A stretch of 44,300 nt of DNA, taken from the NCBI RefSeq assembly GCF_030409335.1, contig NZ_JAUFPN010000203.1:1-44300 (forward strand). The letters are read 5' to 3'. A program made the translations under genes and the position numbers. Under the pieces are notes generated by a model. The model made no database searches and had not been told where the DNA came from. It saw only the letters and a program-made list of their open reading frames with translations. This document shows positions 4,943 to 24,622 of the stretch, in pieces (the first letter of the stretch is position 1; each line of letters begins with the position of its first letter). The DNA comes from Paeniroseomonas aquatica. GTDB taxonomy: Bacteria; Pseudomonadota; Alphaproteobacteria; Acetobacterales; Acetobacteraceae.

Positions 4943-7897
4943 TCAGGCCACCGCGGTATCCTGGGGCGGCTGGATGAGTCCCAGGGCCTTCTGGGTCTCC
5001 TCCGCCACCGTCAGCACGACGCCCCGGAGCATCAACGCCTGGGCGGCGGGCAGGGTGCGCGCCTCCGTCTGGAACTGGCGGGCCGCCGCGGCCAGCCGGT
5101 TGGCCCCCAGGGTGGCGGCCGAGCCGGCCAGCCGATGCGCCGCGGAGAGCGCTTCCTCCATCGCCTCGGGACCGGCCGCCTGCAGCCGGATCACCTGGTC
5201 GGCAATCTCCTGCAGGAAGACCGGCGCCAGGCGGCGCGCCGTCTCGGCGTCCAGCCCGGGGATGGCCAGTGCATTGCCGCTACGCCGCTCGAGCAGCGGC
5301 AGGCTGGCCAGCCCGGGCAGCTGCGCCGGCGCCTCGGCGGCCCTGGCCGGGCTCGGACGGCCCCGGGCCAAGCGGCCGAGCGCTGCGATGAGCGCATCCC
5401 GCTCGATCGGCTTGGCCAGATGCGCGTCCATGCCGGCGGCGCTGCAAGCGGCGATGTCCTCGGCGAAGGCGCTGGCGGTCACCGCCAGGACCGGCACCTG
5501 CCCGGCCGGGCCCGGCAGGGCACGGATACGGCGGGTGGCCTCCAGCCCATCCATCCCGGGCATCATCACATCCATCAGCACCACGTCGAAGCGGCAGGCC
5601 GGTGCCGTCTCCTCCAGGGCCGCCAGGGCCAGGGCGCCGTCGGCGACGCAGGTCACGGCATGGCCCGCCGATTCGAGCAGCGCCCGGGCGACCGCCAGGT
5701 TGGCCGGCACGTCATCCGCCACCAGGACCTGGAGCGGCCGGGCCGGCAGCGCCTGGGCCGCAGCGCCCCCCGCCAGCGGCAGGTGGGCCGGCTGCAGCGG
5801 CAGCTCGACCCAAAAGATGGCGCCCGGGCCGGTGCTGGACGCCGGGTTGTCGGTGCAGCCGATCGTGCCTTCCATCTGGGCGGCGATCCCGGCCGCAATC
5901 GCCAGGCCGAGCCCGGTGCCGCCGGCCCGCTCGTCCCGGGCGAGCTGCACGAAATCGCCGAAGACGGCACAGCGCTTGGCCTCCGGCACGCCGGGACCGG
6001 TATCCCGCACCTCGATCCGGATCATCGCCCGGCCATCCGGCAGCAGGCCGGATGGCACCGTGCCCTGGACCGCCCGGGCCACGACTTCCACCACGCCGCC
6101 GGACGGGGTGAATTTCACCGCGTTGGACAGCAGGTTCAGCACCAGCTGCCGCAGGCGGGTCTGGTCCACCAGCACCACCTCCGGCAGGGCCGGCCCGAGT
6201 ACCACGGCCAGGCGCACCTGCTTCTCCTCGGCCGCCGGGCGGACCAGGGTGGCGCTGCTGTCGAGCAGGGCATCGAGCCGGGTCGGCGCCCGCCGCAGCT
6301 CCAGCCGGCCCGATTCCACCTTGGCCAGGTCCAGCACGTCGTTGGCGACGGCGACCAGATGGCGACCGGCCTCCTCCAGCGTGCGGGCACGCGCCTGCTG
6401 CTCGCCGGAGAGCTTCGGGTCGCGTGCCAGCGCCTGGGCCAGGCCCAGCACCCCGTTCAGCGGGGTCCGCAGCTCGTGGCTCATCTGGGCGAGGAAGCGG
6501 GACTTGGCGGCGGTGGCGGCGGCGGCCGAATCGCGGGCCAGGGCGATCTCGGTCATCGCCCGCTTCAGCGCGGTGATATCGGTGCGGATGCCCACCGTGC
6601 CGCCGCCCGGCGTCTCCCGGTCGGTCACCATCAGCCAGCGCCCATCCGGCAGCAGCCGCTCGATGCTGGGCTGGTTGCTGCGATGCCAGGCGGTGATCTC
6701 GGCGACGAAGCGCTCGATGTCTTCGCCCGCCTGCGGATACTGGCCGCGCTTGGCGCCTTCCCGGATAATGTCCTCGAATTTGGCGCCGGGTTCGATGAAG
6801 GGCGCGCTGATCGCATAGAGGTCGCGGTAACGCTGGTTGCAGACCACCAGCCGATCTTCGGCATCGAACATGACGAAGCCGTCCGGCATGGTCTCGATGG
6901 CCCGCTCTAGTACGGCGCGGGCCCGGGTTCGCTCCGCCTCGATACGCTCGCGCTGCCGCAGGGCGATGTGAAGGGCGAGGGCGAGGGCGATCAGCAGCAC
7001 GCCCAGGCTGCCGGCGACCAGCAGCAGCCGGCGGCGATCAAGGGTCCAGGCGGCGAAGGCGGCCTCCTCGTCGTAGCTCGCCACCACGAAGATGTCCCGG
7101 TAAAGGATGGGGCGGGCCGCGGCCAGCGCCGGGATGTCGTCGTAGCGCCCGGCGATCGCCACCGCACTGCCGTCAGCGGGCAGCTGGCTGGCCGGCTGCG
7201 CCAGGGGGCGGCCCATGCGGCCCTCGTCATGGGGCAGCGCCACCAGGACGCGCCCATCCGCCCGTTCGACCGAGATCCTGAGCCCCGGCAGCTCGCCGAT
7301 CGGCGCCAGCAGGGTGGCGATCAGCGGCACCGGCACCTCGGCCACCGCCACCAGCGGGCCAAGCCCGGGCAGGTCCATGGCGCGCAGGAACATCAGCGAC
7401 CACTCGCCGGTCAGCGCATTGCGGGCCGGACCGCTGAGCACCGCGGCACCGAAGCCGGCGGCCGCGGCCACGGCGCCTTCCTCGATCGGCAGCGAACGGC
7501 TGCGGGAGGCGGCCAGCGCGGCGGCCCAGGGCTGTCCATCCGGCCGCAGCACCACCAGGTCGCGGAAGCTGAAGTTCTGGAAATTCAGCTCCCGCAGCAT
7601 GCGATTCGCCGCCGAGGCTTCGACCTGCTCGTTCTGCACCAATTGACCGAGGATGGCTGGCAGCCCCGCCAGCATGCCGTCCACCGCGAGGAAATGCCGG
7701 TTCACCGTGCTTTCGGCGACGCGGGTGATGCGCTGCACGGTCTGCCGCGCGGCGGCCTCGGCGGTGGCGTGCATCCGGTCCAGCAGCAGCGCGGTGCCGC
7801 TGCCCAGCGCCAGCAGCAGCAGTGCGGCGACGACCAGGACGGCAATACGGATGCGACGTGGCTGCATGGCTGTTCTTGAACGCCTATCCGACTTCAT
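4943..7897 (-). CDS. Hybrid sensor histidine kinase (PAS-HisKA-HATPase-REC-HPt)
   Basis: About 984 aa with five recognisable signalling modules. A membrane helix at about 17-35 and a periplasmic sensor domain of roughly 250 residues come first. A second membrane helix (LLLVAGSLGVLLIALALAL, about 285-305) follows. Next is a PAS domain opening AIETMPDGFVMFDAEDR, then HisKA with MSHELRTPLNGVLG (phospho-His near 474). HATPase_c contains NLLSNAVKFTPSGG and GTGLGLAIAAGIA. A receiver carries VLMDVMMPGMDG with its phospho-Asp near 773, and a C-terminal HPt has SAAHRLAGSAATLG near 920. All phosphorelay residues are present, so the relay can run inside one protein; no partner response regulator is adjacent. 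Starts at 7897 and 7867 are both plausible; neither has a strong RBS. Confidence 0.9.
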   Translation of the reverse strand: MKSDRRSRTAMQPRRIRIAVLVVAALLLLALGSGTALLLDRMHATAEAAARQTVQRITRVAESTVNRHFLAVDGMLAGLPAILGQLVQNEQVEASAANRMLRELNFQNFSFRDLVVLRPDGQPWAAALAASRSRSLPIEEGAVAAAAGFGAAVLSGPARNALTGEWSLMFLRAMDLPGLGPLVAVAEVPVPLIATLLAPIGELPGLRISVERADGRVLVALPHDEGRMGRPLAQPASQLPADGSAVAIAGRYDDIPALAAARPILYRDIFVVASYDEEAAFAAWTLDRRRLLLVAGSLGVLLIALALALHIALRQRERIEAERTRARAVLERAIETMPDGFVMFDAEDRLVVCNQRYRDLYAISAPFIEPGAKFEDIIREGAKRGQYPQAGEDIERFVAEITAWHRSNQPSIERLLPDGRWLMVTDRETPGGGTVGIRTDITALKRAMTEIALARDSAAAATAAKSRFLAQMSHELRTPLNGVLGLAQALARDPKLSGEQQARARTLEEAGRHLVAVANDVLDLAKVESGRLELRRAPTRLDALLDSSATLVRPAAEEKQVRLAVVLGPALPEVVLVDQTRLRQLVLNLLSNAVKFTPSGGVVEVVARAVQGTVPSGLLPDGRAMIRIEVRDTGPGVPEAKRCAVFGDFVQLARDERAGGTGLGLAIAAGIAAQMEGTIGCTDNPASSTGPGAIFWVELPLQPAHLPLAGGAAAQALPARPLQVLVADDVPANLAVARALLESAGHAVTCVADGALALAALEETAPACRFDVVLMDVMMPGMDGLEATRRIRALPGPAGQVPVLAVTASAFAEDIAACSAAGMDAHLAKPIERDALIAALGRLARGRPSPARAAEAPAQLPGLASLPLLERRSGNALAIPGLDAETARRLAPVFLQEIADQVIRLQAAGPEAMEEALSAAHRLAGSAATLGANRLAAAARQFQTEARTLPAAQALMLRGVVLTVAEETQKALGLIQPPQDTAVA

Positions 7898-15034: not shown

Positions 15035-15992
15035 GCTCATCGGCGCCTCCCGCCTCACCGTCGAGCTCGGCGCCCGCCAGGGCCTGTTCCGCCGCCGCGC
15101 CGGGGTGCGCGCGGTGGATGGCGTGGACCTCTCGGTCCAGGCCGGCGAGATCTTCGGCATCGTCGGCGAAAGCGGCTGCGGCAAGACGACGCTGGCCCGC
15201 ACCCTGCTCGGCCTGCAGCGCGAATCCGGCGGCGAGATCCGGCTCGAGGACCGTGCCGTGTCCGGCCAGGCTCCGGCGCAGGCGCGCCAGGCCCGCGCGG
15301 CGGTGCAATACGTCCACCAGGACCCCGGCGCCGCGCTCGACCCCTGGTGGCGCGTCGGCGCGACCCTCGCGGAAGGCCTCTCCATCCACGGCATGACCGA
15401 TCGCGCCGAGCAGCGCGCCCGCATCGCCGAGACCCTGACCGCCGTCGGCCTCGATGCCGCCTTCGGCGACCGCTACCCGCATGAGCTCTCGGGCGGCCAG
15501 CAGCGCCGCATCGGCCTCGCCCGCATCCTGCTGCTGCGGCCGAAGCTGGTGATCCTGGACGAGCCCACAGCCGGCCTCGACCTCTCGGTCCAGGCGGCGG
15601 TGCTGCGGCTGCTGCGGGACCTGCGCGGGCGCTTCGGCCTGACCTACCTTTTCATCAGCCACGACCTCTCCGTGGTGCGCCGGGTCTGCGACCGGGTGGC
15701 GGTGATGTACCTCGGCCGCATCGTCGAGCAGGGCAGCGCGGCGGAACTCTTCGAGGCGCCGCGCCACCCCTATACCCGCGCCCTGCTCGCCGCCGCGCCG
15801 CGGCTGGACGGCGCCGCCGCCGGCCCCTCCCTGCCGGGCGATCCGCCCAGCCTCCGCGCCATCCCCAGCGGCTGCCGCTTCCACCCGCGCTGCGCCCTGG
15901 CCGATGCCCGCTGCGCGGCGCAGGATCCGCCGGTGACGGAAATCTCGCCCGGCCACACCGTCGCCTGCCACCATTGGGACGCCGCCGCATGA
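15027..15992 (+). CDS. ABC transporter ATP-binding protein (DppF type)
   Basis: 321-residue second ATPase of the importer: Walker A GESGCGKTT, signature LSGGQQRRIGLARIL, Walker B LVILDEPTAGLD, H-loop FISHDLSVV and a C-terminal GCRFHPRCALADARC segment. GTG 15027 is preferred because GAGG lies nine bases upstream; an ATG at 15009 would add six residues and is possible. It overlaps the DppD-type gene by eight bases. With that gene it forms the usual heterodimeric motor. Confidence 0.92.
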   Translation: MPELIGASRLTVELGARQGLFRRRAGVRAVDGVDLSVQAGEIFGIVGESGCGKTTLARTLLGLQRESGGEIRLEDRAVSGQAPAQARQARAAVQYVHQDPGAALDPWWRVGATLAEGLSIHGMTDRAEQRARIAETLTAVGLDAAFGDRYPHELSGGQQRRIGLARILLLRPKLVILDEPTAGLDLSVQAAVLRLLRDLRGRFGLTYLFISHDLSVVRRVCDRVAVMYLGRIVEQGSAAELFEAPRHPYTRALLAAAPRLDGAAAGPSLPGDPPSLRAIPSGCRFHPRCALADARCAAQDPPVTEISPGHTVACHHWDAAA

Positions 15993-17737
15993 CCCTTTGC
16001 GATCCCGTCTCGCTCGAGATCATCCGCGGCGCCGCCCGCGCCGCCCAGGCGGAGATGGAGGCGCTGTTGGAACGCACCGCCATGTCCGCCTTCATCCGCG
16101 AGAAGAAGGATTTCTACACCGCCCTCTTCGATGCCTCCGGCGCCATGGCGGTCGGCTCCGACCTGCCGATCTTCGGCGACATCGTCGGGCCGGTGACGGC
16201 GCGCTACCCGCTCGAGGGCATGCAGGCCGGCGATCTCTACTGGTACAACGACTGCTACGGCAGCCGCGGCGCCGTCTCCCATTCCAACGACCAGGTCTTC
16301 CTGGCGCCCATCTTCCTGGGGACCGTGCGGGTCGGCTTCGTCATGGGCTGGGCGCATTTCTCCGATATCGGCGGCCTTCGCCCCGGCTCGCTCAGCCCCG
16401 ATGCCACCGACCATTTCCAGGAAGGCATCATCATCCCGCCGGTCCGCCTGGTCCGCGGCGGCGAGACCAATGAGGACCTCCTCCGCGCCTTCTGGCGCAA
16501 CAGCCGCTTCCCCGTGCAGTCCCAGGGCGATACCAGCGCGCTGATGGCCGCCGTCCGCCTCGGCGAGAAGCGGGTCGAGGAGATCGCCGCGCGCTTCGGC
16601 GCCGATGTCCTGGCCGATGCCTTCGCCCAGCTCCTCTCCCGCACCGAGACCTTGATCCGCGCCAAGCTGCGCGCCGCCTTCCCCATTGGCACCACCCGCT
16701 TCGCCGATACCATCGACGCCGACGGCCATGGCAACGGCCCCTTCACCCTGCGCCTGGCGCTCACCCGCACGCCGGAGGACCGCTTCATCCTCGATGCCAC
16801 CGAGACCGACGACCAGGCCATCGGCCCGGTGAACCTGCTGATGCACCCGGATGTGCCCGGCATGGCGCTCGGCCTCTACTTCCTCCAGGGCGAGGCCGGG
16901 CAGGTGCTGAACGCCGGCGGCCCCCGCGCCATCGACGAGGTGCGGCTGCGGGAGGGCTCCCTCCTCTGGCCCCGCTCGCCGGCGCCGCTCGGCCTGCGCG
17001 GCATCACCATGATGCGGCTGCTGGCGGTCCTGCACGGCCTCGTCGCCGTGGCGCGGCATGGCGAGGCGCCCGCCGCGCATTCCGCCTATGTCATCATGGC
17101 GCTGCGCGGGGAGCACGAAGGCAAGCGCTTCCTGATGACCGATGGCGTCGCCGTCGGCTACGGCGCCCGCCCCTTCGCCGATGGCGTCGATGCGGTCTAC
17201 TTCGTCGCCCAGGAGAATTACCCGGTGGAGTTCATGGAGCTCGCCTATCCCGTGCGGCTGCTGGCCTATGGCATCCACCGCGACAGCGGCGGCGCCGGCC
17301 AGCACCGCGGCGGCTGCGGCGTGGTGCGGGAATACGAGGTGATGGCCGATACCGCCCAGGTCGCCATCCGCATTGACAGCGTGGTGAACCCGCCCTGGGG
17401 CGTCGCCGGCGGGATGTGCGGCGGCAGCGGCCGCGCCGTGGTGAACCCCGGCCGGGCCGACGAACGGGTGCTGCCGCCGCTCTCCGACGGCACGGTACTG
17501 AAGCGCGGCGACGTACTGCGGCTGGAGACCGGTGGCGGCGGCGGCTGGGGCCCCCCCTTCGACCGGCCGGAAGAACTCGTCCGCGCCGATATCCTCGGCG
17601 GCTTCATCACCGCGGAGGCCGCCGCCCGCGACTATGGCGTGGTCCTGGACGACCCCGCCGCCACCGCCCGCCTCCGCGCCGACCGCGCCCCCACGAAACT
17701 CTTCCACCGCCGGGGCTACGTCGATGAAGTCGCGTGA
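15989..17737 (+). CDS. Hydantoinase B/oxoprolinase family protein
   Basis: 582-residue HyuB-type subunit. It begins CDPVSLEIIRGAARAAQAEMEALLERTAMS, the family hallmark, with GDIVGPVTARYP and YWYNDCYGSRGAVSHSND (the family NDPY-like region). The C-terminal glycine-rich section GGGGGWGPPFDRPEELVRADILGGFITAEAAARDYGV is diagnostic. Together with the A subunit it forms an ATP-dependent cyclic-amide hydrolase (5-oxoproline, hydantoin) or an acetone/acetophenone-carboxylase-like enzyme. The sequence does not separate these. The ATG at 15989 overlaps the ATPase stop (ATGA), tying it to the importer. Confidence 0.92.
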   Translation: MTLCDPVSLEIIRGAARAAQAEMEALLERTAMSAFIREKKDFYTALFDASGAMAVGSDLPIFGDIVGPVTARYPLEGMQAGDLYWYNDCYGSRGAVSHSNDQVFLAPIFLGTVRVGFVMGWAHFSDIGGLRPGSLSPDATDHFQEGIIIPPVRLVRGGETNEDLLRAFWRNSRFPVQSQGDTSALMAAVRLGEKRVEEIAARFGADVLADAFAQLLSRTETLIRAKLRAAFPIGTTRFADTIDADGHGNGPFTLRLALTRTPEDRFILDATETDDQAIGPVNLLMHPDVPGMALGLYFLQGEAGQVLNAGGPRAIDEVRLREGSLLWPRSPAPLGLRGITMMRLLAVLHGLVAVARHGEAPAAHSAYVIMALRGEHEGKRFLMTDGVAVGYGARPFADGVDAVYFVAQENYPVEFMELAYPVRLLAYGIHRDSGGAGQHRGGCGVVREYEVMADTAQVAIRIDSVVNPPWGVAGGMCGGSGRAVVNPGRADERVLPPLSDGTVLKRGDVLRLETGGGGGWGPPFDRPEELVRADILGGFITAEAAARDYGVVLDDPAATARLRADRAPTKLFHRRGYVDEVA

Positions 17738-19751
17738 CCTCCTCGTCGCCGTCGACATCGGCGGCACCTTCACCGACATCACCCTGCAGGATGCCGCGAC
17801 CGGCGAGGCCTGGACCGCCAAGACCCCCTCCACCCCACGCGACCCCTCGGAGGCCTTCCTCACCGGCGTCGGCCTGGCCCTCGCCGCCGCCGGCCGCGAG
17901 GCCGCGGAGATCGGCCGCGTCCTGCACGGCACCACCGTCGCCACCAACCTGATCCTCGAGGGCAAGACCGCCCCCACCGCCCTGCTGACGACGCAAGGCT
18001 TCCGCCACGTGCTGGAGATCGGCCGCGCCGACCTGCCCCGGCGCGACAACCTCTGGTCCTGGCAGAAGCCCCGACGCCCCGTCCCCCCCGCCCAGGTCTA
18101 CGAGGTTCCCGGCCGCATCGCCGCCGACGGCCGCGAACTCACCCCGCTCGATGAGGCCGCGGTCACCGCCGCCGCCCGGGCCGCCGTCGCCGCCGGTGCC
18201 CGCGCCATCGCCATCTGCTTCCTCCACAGCTTCGCCAACCCGGCCCACGAACGCCGCGCCCTGGCCCTGGTCCAGGCCGCCGCCCCCGGCATCGCCGTCA
18301 CCGCCTCGGCCGACGTGCTGCCCGTGGTCCGCGAATACGAACGCAGCATGGCGACGGTGCTGAACGCCGCCGTCATGCCCGCCGTCTCCACCTATGTGGA
18401 GAAGCTAGAGGCCCGGCTCGCCGCCGGCGGGATCGCGGCGCCGCTGCTGCTGATGAAATCCAACGGCGGGGTCGCAGGCGCCCCGGCCATCCGCCGCGCC
18501 CCGGTGCAGACCGCGCTCTCCGGCCCCGCCGCCGGGGTGGTCGGCGCCGCCGCCCTCGCCACAGCAGCCGGCGTGCCCGACATCATCACCGTCGACATCG
18601 GCGGCACCAGCGCCGACATCGCCCTCATCGCCGGCGGCAAGCCGGGCCTGACCCAATCCGGCAAGGTCGGCCCCTGGCCGCTGCCGCTGCCGATGGTCGA
18701 CATGGTCACCATCGGCGCCGGCGGCGGCTCCATCGCCCGCGTCGCCGGCGGCGCGCTCACCGTCGGGCCGCAGAGCGCCGGCGCCGACCCCGGCCCCGCC
18801 TGCTACGGCCGCGGCGGCGAGGAACCCACCGTCACCGATGCCCATCTCGTCCTCGGCCACCTGCCGCCGGCGCTCCTCGGCGGCCGCATGGCGCTCGATG
18901 CCGGGCTGGCCGAGGCCGCCATCCGCGCCAAGGTCGCCACCCCCCTCGGCCTCTCGCTCGAGGACGCCGCCCGCGGCATCCTGGCCATCGCCGACAACAC
19001 CATGGTCGGCGCCATCCGCATCGTCTCGGTCGAGCGCGGCCACGACCCGCGCGCCTTCGCCCTGGTCCCCTTCGGCGGCGCCGGGCCGCTGCATGGCATT
19101 GCGCTGGCCGGGCTGCTCGGCATGACCCAGGTGCTGGTGCCGCCGACCCCCGGCGTGCTTTGCGCCCAGGGGCTGCTCGCCGCCGACCTCAAGGCCGAGT
19201 TCAGCCGGACAATCGCCCGCAAGCTGGCCGGCGCCGACCCCGACGCGCTGGAGGCCGCCTTCGCCGCCCTGGCCGCCGAGGCCGAGGCCTGGTTCGCCCA
19301 GGAAGCCGTCGCCCCCGCCGACCGCGCCAGCCATCGTGTCGCCCTGCTGCGCTATGAGGAACAGGGCTTCGAGCTGCCCATCCCCTGGCCCGCCACGGCC
19401 GAGGCCTTCGCCGCCGCCCATCGCGCCCTCTATGGCTTCGACCTGCCCGGCGTGCCGATCGAGATCGTCACCCTGCGCCTCGAGGCCTCCGGCCGCCTGC
19501 CGGCCCCCGTCCTGCCGCAGCCGACCGGCGGCGCCGCGGCGGAGGCCATCACCGGCCACCAGACCATCCGCCTGCCGGGCGGTGCGGTGCGGGCGCCGAT
19601 CCTCGACCGCGCCCGCCTCGGCCCCGGCGCAGACTTCGAGGGCCCCGCCATCCTGGTGCAACTGGACGCGACCACCCTGGTCCCGCCCGGCTGGCGCGGC
19701 AGGGTCCACCCGACCGGCGCCATCCTGCTGGAGGCCGCTACGCCGGCCTGA
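17724..19751 (+). CDS. Hydantoinase/oxoprolinase A family protein
   Basis: 675-residue HyuA-type subunit with an actin-like ATPase fold. LLVAVDIGGTFTDITLQ at 6-22 is the phosphate-1 motif, and LHGTTVATNLILEGK follows. VDIGGTSADIALI and GAGGGSIARV mark the second half, and FGGAGPLHGIALA is the adenosine-type motif. The C-terminal domain has the LRLEASGRLPAP segment. The start at 17724 overlaps the B subunit by 14 bases. It is the last gene of the importer-hydrolase operon, and its 3' end overlaps the convergent mini-CobW-like gene by 14 bases. The substrate would be whatever the ABC importer delivers (inference). Confidence 0.92.
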   Translation: MKSRDLLVAVDIGGTFTDITLQDAATGEAWTAKTPSTPRDPSEAFLTGVGLALAAAGREAAEIGRVLHGTTVATNLILEGKTAPTALLTTQGFRHVLEIGRADLPRRDNLWSWQKPRRPVPPAQVYEVPGRIAADGRELTPLDEAAVTAAARAAVAAGARAIAICFLHSFANPAHERRALALVQAAAPGIAVTASADVLPVVREYERSMATVLNAAVMPAVSTYVEKLEARLAAGGIAAPLLLMKSNGGVAGAPAIRRAPVQTALSGPAAGVVGAAALATAAGVPDIITVDIGGTSADIALIAGGKPGLTQSGKVGPWPLPLPMVDMVTIGAGGGSIARVAGGALTVGPQSAGADPGPACYGRGGEEPTVTDAHLVLGHLPPALLGGRMALDAGLAEAAIRAKVATPLGLSLEDAARGILAIADNTMVGAIRIVSVERGHDPRAFALVPFGGAGPLHGIALAGLLGMTQVLVPPTPGVLCAQGLLAADLKAEFSRTIARKLAGADPDALEAAFAALAAEAEAWFAQEAVAPADRASHRVALLRYEEQGFELPIPWPATAEAFAAAHRALYGFDLPGVPIEIVTLRLEASGRLPAPVLPQPTGGAAAEAITGHQTIRLPGGAVRAPILDRARLGPGADFEGPAILVQLDATTLVPPGWRGRVHPTGAILLEAATPA

Positions 19752-20097
19752 ACCGCGCCGAGGTCAGCGCATCGCCCGCCAGCGCCTCGGCCACCTGCAC
19801 CCGCGCCGGCTCGCTGCCGGCCAGCGCCACCACCCGGGTGAACCAGCCGCAGCGCCCGCGCACCCGGGCCTGGAACAGCCGGTCCAGCGCCGCCGCGGCC
19901 GGGCTCCGGCCGTTGCAGCAGGTGCAGGCGATGGCATGGGGCATGTCGGCCTCGAAGGCCTCGACCGCCATGGCGGCGATTGCCGGGGCAGGGGCCTCGG
20001 CCAGCACCGCCGCCTCCCCCCCGGCCAGCGCCGCCGCCAGCCCGGCCGCATCCGTGACCACCAGCAGGGGTATCCGCGCATCCACCGTCCAGGCCAT
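19738..20097 (-). CDS. Small CxCC protein resembling a P-loop-less CobW/COG0523 domain
   Basis: 119 residues, with no family I can name outright. RIPLLVVT at 8-15 resembles the first beta strand of G3E GTPases (RIPVTVLTGFLGAGKTT), but the Walker A is absent; the next residues are DAAGLAAAL. C58-T-C60-C61 reproduces the COG0523 CxCC metal motif. It is followed, at the spacing of that family, by a helix and FTRVVALAGSEPARV (compare FDRVVIETTGLADPAPV). The end, GDALTSARFRPA, resembles DPVLAARFRLD. The gene has an AGGAG Shine-Dalgarno seven bases before its ATG. It diverges from the sahR-metH operon across a 20-bp palindrome. I infer a degenerate metallochaperone-like or metal-binding protein linked to the methionine cycle; this is unproven. 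Confidence 0.7.
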   Translation of the reverse strand: MAWTVDARIPLLVVTDAAGLAAALAGGEAAVLAEAPAPAIAAMAVEAFEADMPHAIACTCCNGRSPAAAALDRLFQARVRGRCGWFTRVVALAGSEPARVQVAEALAGDALTSARFRPA

Positions 20098-20121
20098 CGG
20101 TCACTCCTCGCTTCCGACTAG

Positions 20122-20141
20122 ACATAAGGATATCTTTATGT
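20122..20141. promoter_or_regulatory. Palindromic operator, probably SahR type
   Basis: ACATAAGGATATCTTTATGT is a 20-bp palindrome with only one mismatched pair, centred on GATATC and standing out as AT-rich in this genome. It lies 12 bp before the ArsR-methyltransferase start and 24 bp before the divergent CxCC gene start. One bound dimer could thus control both. An ArsR-family regulator gene adjoins it, which makes autoregulation the natural reading. Confidence 0.75.
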
Positions 20142-20153
20142 GATAGCCAGCCC

Positions 20154-21104
20154 ATGGAAGACCTGTTGGCCCAGTTGCGTGCCGCCGCCGAGCCGACCCG
20201 GCTCCGCCTGCTCGCCCTCTGCGCGCGCGGCGCCTTCTGCGTGTCCGATCTCTGCGCGGTCCTCGGCCAGTCGCAGCCCCGCCTCTCCCGCCACCTGAAG
20301 CTGCTGGTCGAGGCCGGGTTGCTGGAGCGCCTGCCGGAAGGCGCCAATGCCTATTTCCAGGTGCCCGGCGAGGCCAGCCTGGTTCACCAATTATTGGCCC
20401 GCCTGCCCGAGGATGATGTCCAGCTGGCGGCCGACCGCCGGCAGGCGGCGCGGCTCGCGGCCGAACGCGCCCGCATCGCCTCCGACGCCTTCCGCCGCCA
20501 CGGCGCCGACTGGGACGAGATGCGCGCCCTGGAGCTCCCGGCCGAGGCTATCGAAGCCGCCCTGCTGGAGGCCCTGCCGTCGCGGGCCGGCCGCATCCTC
20601 GATATCGGCACCGGCACCGGCCGGCTGCTGGAGGTCCTGGCCCCGCGGGCGGAAAGCCTGCTCGGCGTCGATGCCAGCCGGGACATGCTGGCGCTCGCCC
20701 GCGCCCGCCTGGCCGAGCGCGGCCTCGGTGCCCATTGCGCCGTCCGTCAGGCCGACATGTACCGCCTGCCGCTGCCCGATGCCGGCTTCGACGTGGTCAC
20801 CCTGCAGATGGTCCTGCACTACGCCGAGGACCCCGCCGCCGCCCTGGCCGAGGCTGCCCGCGTGCTGCGGCCCGATGGGCTGCTGCTGATCCTCGACCTC
20901 GCCCCGCACGACCGCGGCGAGCTGCTGGACCGCCATGCCCATCGCTGGCCCGGCTTCGACGATGCCGGGATCGCCGGCTGGCTCGGCCCCGCCGGCTGCG
21001 CCCCGCTCGCCCCCACCCTGATCCCCGGCCCGCTCGCCGTCCGCCTCTGGCCCGCCCGCCGGCTGGCCGTGCCGGTCGCCGCGGTGCCCGCCCTGACCTT
21101 CTAG
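20154..21104 (+). CDS. sahR: ArsR-family regulator fused to SAM-dependent methyltransferase (SahR-like)
   Basis: 316 aa. Residues 1-85 form a winged helix of the ArsR type (EPTRLRLLALCARGAFCVSDLCAVLGQSQPRLSRHLKLLVEAGLLERL). No metal-binding ELCVCDL Cys pair of true ArsR is complete, although C29 and C34 are near. Residues about 115-300 form a class I methyltransferase with ILDIGTGTGR (148-157) as the SAM motif and GVDAS as motif II. This fusion next to metH matches the alphaproteobacterial SahR regulators, which sense S-adenosylhomocysteine and control methionine-cycle genes (known for the family; effector inferred here). The SAM/SAH pocket would be the sensor. metH starts 11 bases downstream. 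The symbol rests on context and architecture, not on a direct comparison. Confidence 0.85.
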   Translation: MEDLLAQLRAAAEPTRLRLLALCARGAFCVSDLCAVLGQSQPRLSRHLKLLVEAGLLERLPEGANAYFQVPGEASLVHQLLARLPEDDVQLAADRRQAARLAAERARIASDAFRRHGADWDEMRALELPAEAIEAALLEALPSRAGRILDIGTGTGRLLEVLAPRAESLLGVDASRDMLALARARLAERGLGAHCAVRQADMYRLPLPDAGFDVVTLQMVLHYAEDPAAALAEAARVLRPDGLLLILDLAPHDRGELLDRHAHRWPGFDDAGIAGWLGPAGCAPLAPTLIPGPLAVRLWPARRLAVPVAAVPALTF

Positions 21105-21115
21105 GAAGCCCCCTT

Positions 21116-24100
21116 ATGGCGCGTCCCCATATCCTCGATGCCCTGGCCGACCGCGTGCTGCTCTGCGACGGCGGCATGGGCAGCCGGGTGCAGGCCCTCA
21201 CCCTCGATGTCGACAAGGACTACTGGGGCAAGGAGAATTGCACCGACGTCCTGAACCTCTCCCGCCCCGACATGGTCCGCGAAATCCACCGCGGCTATTT
21301 CGAGGCCGGCGCCGACATGGTGCTGACCAATACCTTCGGCGGCAGCCCGGTGACCCTCGGCGAATTCGAGCTGGAGGACCGCGCCTTCGAGATCAACAAG
21401 CTCGGCGGCGAGCTGGCGCGGGAAGCCGCCGAGAGCTTCGCCGATAACCGCCACCGCTGGGTCATCGGCGACATCGGCCCTGGCACCAAGCTGCCCAGCC
21501 TCGGCCACATCAAGTACGACGACCTGCAGGCGGCGCTCGAGGAGCAATGCCGCGGCCTGATCGCCGGCGGCGTCGATGCCATCCTGACCGAGACCAACCA
21601 GGACACGCTCTTCATCAAGGCCGCGGTGAATGCCGCCAAGGCCGCGATCAAGCAGACCGGCGTAAAGATTCCGATCTTCGTCCAGGTCACGGTCGAGACC
21701 ACCGGCACCCTGCTGGTCGGCCCCGACATCGCCGCCGCCGCCACCGTGGTGCATTCCCTCGACGTGCCGCTGATCGGGCTGAATTGCGCGACCGGCCCGC
21801 AGGAGATGGCCGAGCACGTCCGCTGGCTCAGCCAGAACTGGCCCGGCAAGATCAGCGTCCAGCCCAATGCCGGCCTGCCCGAGCTGGTCGACGGCCAGAC
21901 CCACTACCCGCTGGAAGCCGCCGAGATGGCGAGCTGGATGGAGCGCTTCGTCCTCGAGGACGGGGTGAACCTGATCGGCGGCTGCTGCGGCACCTCGACC
22001 CCGCATATCCAGGCGCTCGACGCCATGCTGCGGAAGCACGACGCCTGGCGCCCGGCCCCGGTGCGCCGCAAGTACCACTGGATCCCCTCCGTCGCCTCGC
22101 TGTATGGCGCCACCGCGCTGCGCCAGGAGAACGCCTATTTCTCCATCGGCGAGCGCTGCAACGCCAATGGCTCCAAGGTCTGGCGCGCCCGGCAGGAGGC
22201 GCATGACTGGGACGGCTGCGTCGCCATCGGCCGTGAGCAGGTGGGCGAGGGCTCGAACAGCCTCGACGTCTGCACCGCCTTCGTCGGCCGCAACGAGATG
22301 GAGGAGATGAACGAGGTCATCACCCGCTTCACCTCCTCGGTGAACGCACCGCTGGTGATCGACAGCACCGAGACCCCGGTGATCGAGGCCGCGCTGAAGC
22401 TGCACGGCGGCAAGCCCATCATCAACTCGATCAACTTCGAGGATGGCGAGCAGGCGGCGATCGACCGGCTGGTGCTGGCCAAGAAATTCGGCGCCGGCGT
22501 CATCGCCCTCACCATTGACGAAGTGGGCATGGCCAAGACCGCGGAGGACAAGCTCCGCATCGCCCGCCGCCTGATCGAGTTCGCCTGCGACAAATACGGC
22601 CTGCCGCAGTCCGACCTGCTCATCGACCCGCTGACCTTCACCATCGCGACGGGCAACGAGGACGACCGCAAGCTCGGCCAGTGGACCTTGGAAGGGATCA
22701 AGATGATCCGGGACGAATTCCCGGACGTGCAGATCGTCCTCGGCCTGTCCAACATCAGCTTCGGCCTGAACCCCGCGGCGCGCCACGTGCTGAACAGCGT
22801 CTTCCTCGACCACGCCGTGAAGGCCGGCATGACCGGCGCCATCGTGCATGTCAGCAAGATCAAGCCGCTGCATCTGATCCCCGCCGAGGAAGTCCAGGTC
22901 GTGGAGGATTTGATCTTCGACCGCCGGCGGGAGGGTTACGACCCGCTGCAGAAGCTGCTGGAGATCTTCTCCGGCCGCAAGGCCGCCGACAGCGTCAAGA
23001 AGGTCCGTGCCGAGACGGTCGAGGGACGGCTCAAGGACCGCATCGTCGACGGCGACCGCAAGGGCCTCGGCGACGAGCTCCAGGCCGCGCTCGACCAGGG
23101 CAACACGCCGCTCAGCATCATCAACGACGTGCTGCTCGACGGCATGAAGGTGGTCGGCGAGCTCTTCGGCGCCGGCAAGATGCAGTTGCCCTTCGTGCTC
23201 CAGTCCGCGGAGACGATGAAGGCCGCCGTCGCCTACCTCGAGCCCTTCATGGAGAAGATCGAGGGCCAGGAGAAGGGCACCATCGTCCTCGCCACGGTGA
23301 AGGGCGACGTGCACGACATCGGCAAGAACCTGGTCGACATCATCCTGACCAACAACGGCTACCGCGTCGTCAACCTCGGCATCAAGGTGCCGCTGGCCGA
23401 CATGGTTGCCGCGGTGAAAGAGCACCGGGCGCATGCCATCGGCATGTCCGGCCTGCTGGTGAAATCCACCGTGGTGATGCGCGAGAACCTCGAGGAGATG
23501 AAGCGCCAGGGCCTGGAAGTGCCGGTGCTGCTCGGCGGCGCCGCGCTGACCCGCAACTACGTCGAGGACGACTGCGTCCGCGCCTATGCCAGCGGCGAGC
23601 CGACCGGCCGCGTCGCCTATGCCCGGGATGCCTTCGACGGCCTGCACCTGATGGACAAGGTCACCGGCAACGGCTTCGACGACTACCTCGCCGCGGTGCA
23701 ATCGAAGCGCAAGGGCAAGTCGAAGAACGAAAGCCGGACCCTGGGCACCGCCGACCCGCGCGGCTTCGCCCCGGTGGATGTCGCCTATGCCGAGGAACGC
23801 CGCCGCCGGCTGACCGACGAACTGCCGACGCCGGTGCCGCCCTTCTGGGGCGCCCGCGTCATCGAATCCGCGCCCAAGGCCATCATTCCCTTCATCAACG
23901 AGCGCAGCCTCTACCAATTCCAGTGGGGCTTCCGGAAGCAGGGCCGCACGCTGGAAGACTTCCTCGGCTGGGCCAAGCAGGAGCTGCGCCCGGTGCTGAA
24001 GCGCATGCTGGCGCTGGCCGAGGCCGACAATATCCTCAAGCCGCAGGCGATCTACGGCTACTGGAAATGCGCCGGCGTCGGCAACGACGTGGTGCTCTTC

Positions 24101-24622
24101 GAGGAGGATGGCGCGACCGAGGCGGGCCGCTTCACCCTGCCGCGCCAGCCGAAGCAGGATGGCGAATGCATCGCCGACTTCCTTCGCGACATCGGCGACG
24201 GCCCCGCGAAGCGCGACGTCATCGGCCTGCAGGTCGTCACCGTCGGCCAGAAGGCGAGCGACATCGCCCGCGTCTGGTTCGAGGACAACCGCTACCAGGA
24301 CTACCTCTACCTGCACGGCCTCTCGGTCGAGATGGCCGAGGCCATGGCCGAGTACGTCCACAAGCGCATCCGCGCCGAACTCGGCTTCGCCGGCGAGGAC
24401 GACCGCGACATGGACAAGATGCTGAGCCAGTCCTACCGCGGCGGCCGCTACTCCTTCGGCTACCCCGCCTGCCCACGGCTGGAGGACCAGGTGCCGCTCC
24501 TCAAGCTGCTGGGCGCTGACCGGATCGGCGTCTCAATTTCGGATGAATGGCAACTGCATCCGGAGCAGTCCACCAGCGCGATCGTGCTCCACCACCCGAA
24601 GGCAAAATACTTCTCGGTCTGA
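21116..24622 (+). CDS. metH: Cobalamin-dependent methionine synthase
   Basis: 1168 aa, full-length four-module enzyme (E. coli is about 1227). It transfers a methyl group from methyltetrahydrofolate to homocysteine through B12. The homocysteine domain at 1-325 has the zinc ligands in LNCATG (about 224) and GGCCGTSTPH (about 287-288). The pterin domain starts near 340 with YFSIGERCNANGSK and includes NSLDVCTAF. The B12 cap and binding domains carry GDVHDIGKN near 730 with the cobalt-ligand His. The C-terminal reactivation domain has RYSFGYPACPRLEDQ near 1110, the SAM-binding RxxxGYxxCP motif. ATG 21116 follows the regulator stop by 11 bases with GGAAG nearby. Probably repressed together with sahR when SAH is low (family knowledge). 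No cobalamin or SAM riboswitch is seen. Confidence 0.97.
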   Translation: MARPHILDALADRVLLCDGGMGSRVQALTLDVDKDYWGKENCTDVLNLSRPDMVREIHRGYFEAGADMVLTNTFGGSPVTLGEFELEDRAFEINKLGGELAREAAESFADNRHRWVIGDIGPGTKLPSLGHIKYDDLQAALEEQCRGLIAGGVDAILTETNQDTLFIKAAVNAAKAAIKQTGVKIPIFVQVTVETTGTLLVGPDIAAAATVVHSLDVPLIGLNCATGPQEMAEHVRWLSQNWPGKISVQPNAGLPELVDGQTHYPLEAAEMASWMERFVLEDGVNLIGGCCGTSTPHIQALDAMLRKHDAWRPAPVRRKYHWIPSVASLYGATALRQENAYFSIGERCNANGSKVWRARQEAHDWDGCVAIGREQVGEGSNSLDVCTAFVGRNEMEEMNEVITRFTSSVNAPLVIDSTETPVIEAALKLHGGKPIINSINFEDGEQAAIDRLVLAKKFGAGVIALTIDEVGMAKTAEDKLRIARRLIEFACDKYGLPQSDLLIDPLTFTIATGNEDDRKLGQWTLEGIKMIRDEFPDVQIVLGLSNISFGLNPAARHVLNSVFLDHAVKAGMTGAIVHVSKIKPLHLIPAEEVQVVEDLIFDRRREGYDPLQKLLEIFSGRKAADSVKKVRAETVEGRLKDRIVDGDRKGLGDELQAALDQGNTPLSIINDVLLDGMKVVGELFGAGKMQLPFVLQSAETMKAAVAYLEPFMEKIEGQEKGTIVLATVKGDVHDIGKNLVDIILTNNGYRVVNLGIKVPLADMVAAVKEHRAHAIGMSGLLVKSTVVMRENLEEMKRQGLEVPVLLGGAALTRNYVEDDCVRAYASGEPTGRVAYARDAFDGLHLMDKVTGNGFDDYLAAVQSKRKGKSKNESRTLGTADPRGFAPVDVAYAEERRRRLTDELPTPVPPFWGARVIESAPKAIIPFINERSLYQFQWGFRKQGRTLEDFLGWAKQELRPVLKRMLALAEADNILKPQAIYGYWKCAGVGNDVVLFEEDGATEAGRFTLPRQPKQDGECIADFLRDIGDGPAKRDVIGLQVVTVGQKASDIARVWFEDNRYQDYLYLHGLSVEMAEAMAEYVHKRIRAELGFAGEDDRDMDKMLSQSYRGGRYSFGYPACPRLEDQVPLLKLLGADRIGVSISDEWQLHPEQSTSAIVLHHPKAKYFSV

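Follow-up and report, generated by a model that had tools for sequence, protein, structure and literature searches.

What does a gene for a protein of 119 amino acids, which has the CxCC motif of the COG0523 GTPases and no P-loop, do beside metH, the gene for cobalamin-dependent methionine synthase? We have analyzed this question for contig NZ_JAUFPN010000203.1 of Paeniroseomonas aquatica (assembly GCF_030409335.1). The window, that is, the whole stretch of 44,300 nucleotides, is one entire contig of a 6.5-Mb genome. As judged by profile comparison, the product of the small gene, called the mini here, is the N-terminal half of the G domain of a COG0523 (CobW-type G3E) protein. The P-loop, the NKxD motif and the C-terminal CobW domain have been lost in the minis and CxCC has been kept, and the gene is linked to metH. 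The reading that we prefer, tentatively and with confidence a little short of even, is that the mini carries zinc to MetH independently of GTP and is a pseudo-GTPase derived by truncation of a zinc-type COG0523 metallochaperone. The features of the gene itself are the following.

19738..20097, minus strand: P-loop-less mini-COG0523 gene, 119 aa, with ATG start and stop codon included (alignment, profile homology, AlphaFold2 model)
19915..19926, minus strand: codons C58-C61 of the CxCC motif; C58, C60 and C61 invariant in 54 of 54 aligned minis
19936..19938, minus strand: codon of H54, four residues before CxCC, the proposed fourth metal ligand; His in 54/54 minis and 0/40 P-loop-intact COG0523 domains
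20032..20055, minus strand: residues 15-22 (TDAAGLAA), roughly at the place of the COG0523 Walker A (G1) motif, which is absent (sequence and alignment with locus L147; GxxxxGK[ST] or GK[ST] in 0/54 minis)
20104..20109, minus strand: GAGGAG, Shine-Dalgarno-like, upstream of the mini start (read from the sequence)

An earlier note, made from the letters of this DNA alone, had described a 119-residue gene with a good ribosome-binding site that keeps the CxCC cysteines and has lost the Walker A loop. This holds for the window gene, and the kept cysteines and the missing Walker A loop hold for its relatives as well; loss of CxCC in orthologues was looked for and was not found among the 54 aligned members.

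The open reading frame (ORF) encodes a real protein and is no chance ORF. Of 200 genomes belonging to the same family, 144 gave a match to it in a protein search (E 0.001 or better); a few weak rows in this count are long frames and possibly COG0523. Fifty-four members with lengths of 103-144 aa were aligned: the window protein, that of a Belnapia metagenome-assembled genome (locus L037) and 52 from other fetched loci; L077, which had no tblastn hit, and second, shorter copies from loci already used were left out. Seven residues are invariant in this alignment (R8, H54, C58, C60, C61, F75 and R115), and D6, P10, A68, A70, L71, L74, R78, F86, V89, L106, D109 and R117 are conserved in at least 90% of the members. 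The ratios of nonsynonymous to synonymous substitution rates (dN/dS) for the five pairs computed are 0.10, 0.21, 0.28, 0.36 and 0.47. Because of this conservation across 54 members and these ratios, a chance ORF or pseudogene was discarded as an explanation. The mini family is widespread, and it is without a name in Pfam and NCBIfam: the window protein matched zero Pfam families and nothing over the cut-off in NCBIfam, and a single-sequence search of the PDB gave nothing useful. Weak single-sequence matches to Csx15 and CsmA (E 0.13 and 2.5) were set aside as chance. When all 54 minis were scanned against Pfam, PF02492 was touched by two members only (best E 0.13), and ten other families, each found in a single member, were taken as chance (best PsbJ, 0.0012). 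CbiQ, the best (E 0.15) of three weak PDB profile matches, was also set aside, since it is a membrane protein and the match looks compositional.

The resemblance to G3E/COG0523 proteins that the earlier note had proposed, and which is invisible from the single sequence, was borne out by family profiles. A profile built from the 54 mini homologues (A1) matches two COG0523 genes of the own genome (E 8e-9 and 2.2e-8) and, across the class, 55 of 190 genomes, the own included, with a best E of 3e-17 for a full-length COG0523 protein. Besides the own mini, nearly all of the class-wide matches are frames of >340 aa; the shorter ones are in G368 (269 aa), G369 (112 aa) and G215 (214 aa, with a stop), together with one row of G416 (130 aa, at a contig end). 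The best-scoring of 40 P-loop-intact COG0523 domains reached 64.7 bits with A1, and the best of 800 shuffled ones 5.2 bits. Applied to the mini and COG0523 profiles, hhalign aligned 69 columns between CxCC and the ARFR end with 97.2% and E 2.9e-11; 200 column-shuffled controls reached at most 4.5% with E of at least 0.009. This stretch is the robust part of the homology. Resemblance had been claimed for both sides of CxCC, and the N-terminal RIP strand is included in some of the A1 alignments only.

The minis share with the COG0523 G3E GTPases (PF02492; CobW, YjiA, YeiR, ZigA and ZNG1) the CxCC motif and the homology that runs from it to the strand after the next helices. They differ from them in size, in their place beside metH and in the motifs. 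Walker A (GxxxxGK[ST]), GK[ST] alone and [NT]KxD occur in 0/54 minis each, while HxxxCxCC occurs in 54/54; in the alignment with L147 the mini simply continues past the GFLGSGKTT position without the motif. The position four residues before CxCC is occupied by L, M, V or I in all 40 P-loop-intact COG0523 domains and by His in none. PF07683, the C-terminal CobW domain, was absent from the families matched by the 54 members, the window protein having no Pfam match at all; this domain is usual, not universal, in COG0523 proteins. Thus the losses go beyond the Walker A loop named in the earlier note, and the invariant H54 is an addition to it. Since the defining motifs were tested and are absent, the mini should not be classed as a COG0523 GTPase; the COG0523 set in the part of PMC2770081 available to us is defined by CxCC together with the P-loop domain. 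A tree puts the minis together with other P-loop-less proteins. The P-loop columns were part of its alignment and it carries a long-branch warning, and therefore we make no claim on the origin of the minis.

An AlphaFold2 model computed from the 54-row alignment has a mean predicted local distance difference test score (pLDDT) of 92 and a predicted TM-score (pTM) of 0.85. Its elements follow in the order strand, helix, strand, strand, CxCC loop, helix, strand, helix, short helix, strand, which in this prediction is as expected for half a G domain. Among the 50 PDB matches listed by Foldseek for the model, YjiA has the top TM-scores (4ixn, 0.56 with E 1.8; 1nij, 0.52 with E 1.2), which are not significant; several dual-specificity phosphatases also rank high. 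The comparison of the predicted fold agrees with COG0523 homology and does not prove it.

The surroundings of the gene in the window are as follows.

20122..20141, no strand: SahR-type palindrome of 20 bp within the 56-bp intergenic region common to the mini gene and sahR; its 16-base core has one mismatch to ATAAAGATATCTTTAT
20154..21104, plus strand: sahR, regulator with ArsR-type helix-turn-helix and S-adenosylmethionine-methyltransferase domains (Pfam PF01022, PF08241); named from architecture, operator and position
21116..24622, plus strand: metH, cobalamin-dependent methionine synthase, 1168 aa, activation domain present (Pfam PF02574, PF00809, PF02607, PF02310, PF02965)
15974-19751, plus strand: hydantoinase B and A genes, after peptide-type ATP-binding cassette (ABC) transporter genes

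The mini gene is divergent from sahR, with metH downstream of sahR, and it is tail-to-tail with the hydantoinase A frame, the 3' ends overlapping by 14 bp. In the Belnapia locus, the single match in a search of genome contigs, identity to the window is 79% for the mini and 95-96% for sahR and for the N-terminal 249 residues of metH. A scan of 19950-20250 for promoters and terminators gave no result.

Gene order was surveyed in 150 genomes of the order, which, so far as they are listed, all belong to the same family. Matches of the A1 profile occur in 116 of them; four (G062, G099, G151 and G199) are long frames far from metH that were read as COG0523, and therefore the mini count is 112. The MetH activation domain PF02965 was found in 129 of the 150 genomes, in a search that a MetH without this domain would escape. 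MetH is present in all 112 genomes with a mini, and the mini is present in none of the 21 genomes without the activation domain. The mini gene is adjacent and divergent to metH in 105 of the 112. Five genomes of genus g42 have it divergent from metH at a distance of 11-24 kb, and in G097 the two genes are on separate contigs. In G022 it is kept (L071, 5923-6357, minus strand) 1.87 Mb from metH, so that adjacency is not required. G117 and G276 have neither MetH nor mini, though many of their genus mates carry both. By eye, the neighbours of the G022 mini look like ABC exporter genes on one side and a sugar kinase/nucleotidyltransferase gene on the other. A separate observation concerns G045 (L068:7381-10879, plus strand), where metH matches as three pieces in different frames beside the mini, through frameshifts or assembly errors.

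An intergenic operator shared by the mini and the sahR-metH operon had been proposed, and it is present at 20122-20141. A search for the 16-base core at no more than three mismatches placed the palindrome 7-55 nt before the mini start codon in 44 of the 45 sahR-bearing loci, and found it in 0/9 loci that lack sahR and in 0/2700 shuffled upstream regions. The sole sahR locus without an operator is L054, which has a gap of 0.8 kb between mini and sahR. In 26 of the 44 loci only 7-11 nt separate the operator from the mini ATG (26 nt in the window), a spacing that depends on start codons picked by a rule. The mini mRNA of the 26 loci may be leaderless, since the operator leaves little room for a leader. 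SahR would be expected to repress the mini jointly with metH and to release both when S-adenosylhomocysteine (SAH) rises. The available part of PMC4239095 gives the SahR regulon as sahR, ahcY, metH, metH2, metF, metK, metE, bhmT, metE2, metX2, metB, metT; the palindrome there is of the same kind, with sahR and metH together, and in contrast to our loci the SahR section of its text, as distinct from table S2, names no COG0523-like member. The possibility that sahR is the real partner of the mini was discarded: the mini still adjoins metH in 8 of 9 sahR-less loci (the exception is L071), which makes metH the more constant partner. In the neighbourhood proposed in the earlier note, the partner is therefore metH rather than sahR.

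The earlier note had named no metal for the mini, citing cobalt for CobW and zinc for ZNG1, and gene context favours zinc rather than cobalt. We examined 16 fetched loci centred on P-loop-intact COG0523 genes matched by profile (L141-L151 and L153-L157) and three P-loop-less relatives outside the mini family (L152, L140 and L139). A gene similar to the Fur/Zur-like protein of L140, and called Zur-like by this similarity, is nearby in 7 of the 16 loci (L143, L144, L148, L149, L151, L155, which is in the own genome, and L157). The L152 protein (5726-6829, minus strand, 367 aa) has lost the P-loop, with GVDARTRTEA at the Walker A place, and has kept CxCC and the C-terminal CobW domain. Its gene is directly downstream of ZnuA, ABC-3 and ABC ATPase (znuABC-type) genes, and the locus also holds a Zur-like match and an intact COG0523 gene. 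Five of the seven g176 genomes searched have strong matches to this protein. The missing P-loop was read from the sequences of L152, L162 and L164; the L165 stretch starts past that place, and L161 and L163 are outside this reading. The match in L164 contains one in-frame TGA. The L140 protein (5940-6266, plus strand; G369, from another family of the class) is a P-loop-less mini of 108 aa with CxCC, whose gene runs over the 3' terminus of a gene of the Fur family and faces one for cation efflux; no P-loop-less relative of it was found among 40 other genomes searched. Zinc is favoured because of the Zur-like genes in 7/16 full-length loci and the znuABC or Fur-family genes by two of the three P-loop-less relatives. 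Like the metH-linked minis, the g176 proteins and the L140 mini have lost the P-loop and kept CxCC, and the full-length g176 proteins L152, L162 and L164 also have His at the -4 position (PHAIGCLCC); unlike the minis, L152 and L140 have znuABC-type and Fur-family neighbours, respectively, in place of metH, and L152 retains the C-terminal domain. Such losses with CxCC kept, in two of the three cases next to zinc-type genes, hint that to give up GTP may be a recurrent route among COG0523 proteins. MetH is an enzyme of both zinc and cobalamin. A parallel for zinc supply to methionine synthesis comes from Caulobacter, where, in the part of PMC4176598 available, Zur is linked both to zrpX, a COG0523 gene, and to a methionine synthase of the cobalamin-independent type.

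How such a protein could carry metal is suggested by CobW. As given in the available part of PMC7895991, its tetrahedral thiol site forms only with Mg-GTP bound, and its affinity for Co is >1000-fold weaker with GDP than with GTP. The mini cannot use a switch of this type because it has no P-loop. The nucleotide switch would instead be replaced by a permanent site, in which H54, C58, C60 and C61 would form a tetrahedral Zn site without nucleotide. Zn(II) bound there by the mini would be delivered to the homocysteine domain of MetH, at its zinc site, or would serve to replace the zinc of that site. The homology, the lost and retained motifs, the common operator, the linkage with metH and one instance of joint decay are observed; control by SAH, the binding of metal, zinc as that metal, MetH as client and the direction of transfer are inferred, and the MetH accessory protein proposed in the earlier note is in this sense supported in part.

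Several observations weigh against a zinc carrier for MetH. No mini was found at E 0.001 in 17 of the 129 genomes with MetH. When 3.5-5.7 kb upstream of metH was re-read in 14 of them (the other three, all of genus g40, were left out), 13 showed no mini-like ORF (best E 0.066) and G126 showed a remnant. MetH can therefore work without a mini. All of the linkage comes down to a single conserved neighbourhood within one family of related genomes, so that the counts are not independent events. Nine of the 16 full-length COG0523 loci lack a Zur-like gene, and the third P-loop-less relative, L139 (265 aa), has no adjoining zinc gene, a cation-efflux-like match about 2.6 kb off being the only one; neither L139 nor L140 has His at the -4 position. 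Confidence in the model is lowest at the CxCC loop (residues 51-60 have a mean pLDDT of 66), and Foldseek found no match in the PDB at E 0.001, rank 1 being a signal recognition particle (SRP)-type GTPase and not a COG0523 protein. The remnant in G126 (L190:2216-2512, plus strand) has a damaged CxCC in a frame of 99 aa, and the adjoining metH is in several separate pieces; in G046, a genome from the genus of G126, the matches to mini and metH are 3 kb apart. The two genes seem to decay together, which counts for the link with MetH and not against it.

Other explanations can be considered for the same facts. The mini might be a client adaptor: it would carry no metal alone and would bring a full-length COG0523 GTPase to MetH, by pairing with it or by recruiting it. 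G3E proteins act as dimers. A PF02492 match scoring 199-210 bits and reaching over the P-loop end of the profile is present in 29 of 30 mini genomes searched; the one left, G034 (82% complete), has a single match of 133 bits. However, the mini is the sole match of its own profile in several genomes (e.g. G008, G025, G060, G079 and G100), where a partner would therefore be a more distant paralogue, and the invariance of CxCC suggests that the mini itself holds metal; we consider an adaptor rather unlikely. A role in cobalamin handling, in which the mini loads or protects the MetH corrinoid and a cysteine or H54 touches cobalt, would be comparable to the roles of MeaB and of human CblC/CblD. The neighbour is indeed a B12 enzyme, and the G3E proteins MeaB and CobW serve B12 in the available parts of PMC7895991 and PMC2770081. 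The Fur/Zur-like or znu genes beside two of three P-loop-less and 7 of 16 full-length relatives speak for another metal, and an Rfam search of 12 loci found no riboswitch family at the gathering threshold (one tRNA was found), which leaves this role improbable.

Nor do we put much weight on a sensor role, for zinc or redox state, in which the mini modulates MetH or SahR and delivers no metal, the least probable of these three functions. HxxxCxCC is plausible as a sensing motif and the mini shares the SahR operator region, but the mini is kept beside metH in eight sahR-less loci and away from metH in G022, and no DNA-binding family turned up in Pfam scans of the window protein and the 54 members. 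That the ORF is a functionless remnant or chance product, kept by its position, seems very improbable indeed. The absence of the GTPase motifs and of the mini from some MetH-bearing lineages would fit such a remnant; the invariant His and Cys residues in 54/54 members, the dN/dS of 0.10-0.47 in five pairs, the pLDDT of the model and the presence of the mini in 112 of 129 MetH genomes do not.

Among the literature matches listed, of which titles and the starts of abstracts were covered, there is no P-loop-less COG0523 protein and no link between COG0523 and MetH, and a printed description may exist elsewhere; one narrow search found no described zinc-delivery protein for MetH. We know of none. 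A comparable known case is the archaeal COG0523 subfamily 13 in the available part of PMC2770081, which adjoins genes of corrinoid-dependent methyltransferases, of which MtaA and MtaB are called zinc-dependent; it differs in that these are methanol methyltransfer genes and not MetH. The mini possibly works like a COG0523 chaperone, and it may be a dedicated metal helper for cobalamin-dependent methionine synthase. It is conceivable, if doubtful, that the minis represent a new class of nucleotide-free metallochaperones, in which half a G domain with an extra His that fixes the CxCC site would put zinc into MetH under regulation by SAH. The mini accompanies a single presumed client gene in 112 of the 150 species sampled, and if the zinc-carrier reading is true, both the choice of clients by COG0523 proteins and their need for GTP would become directly testable.

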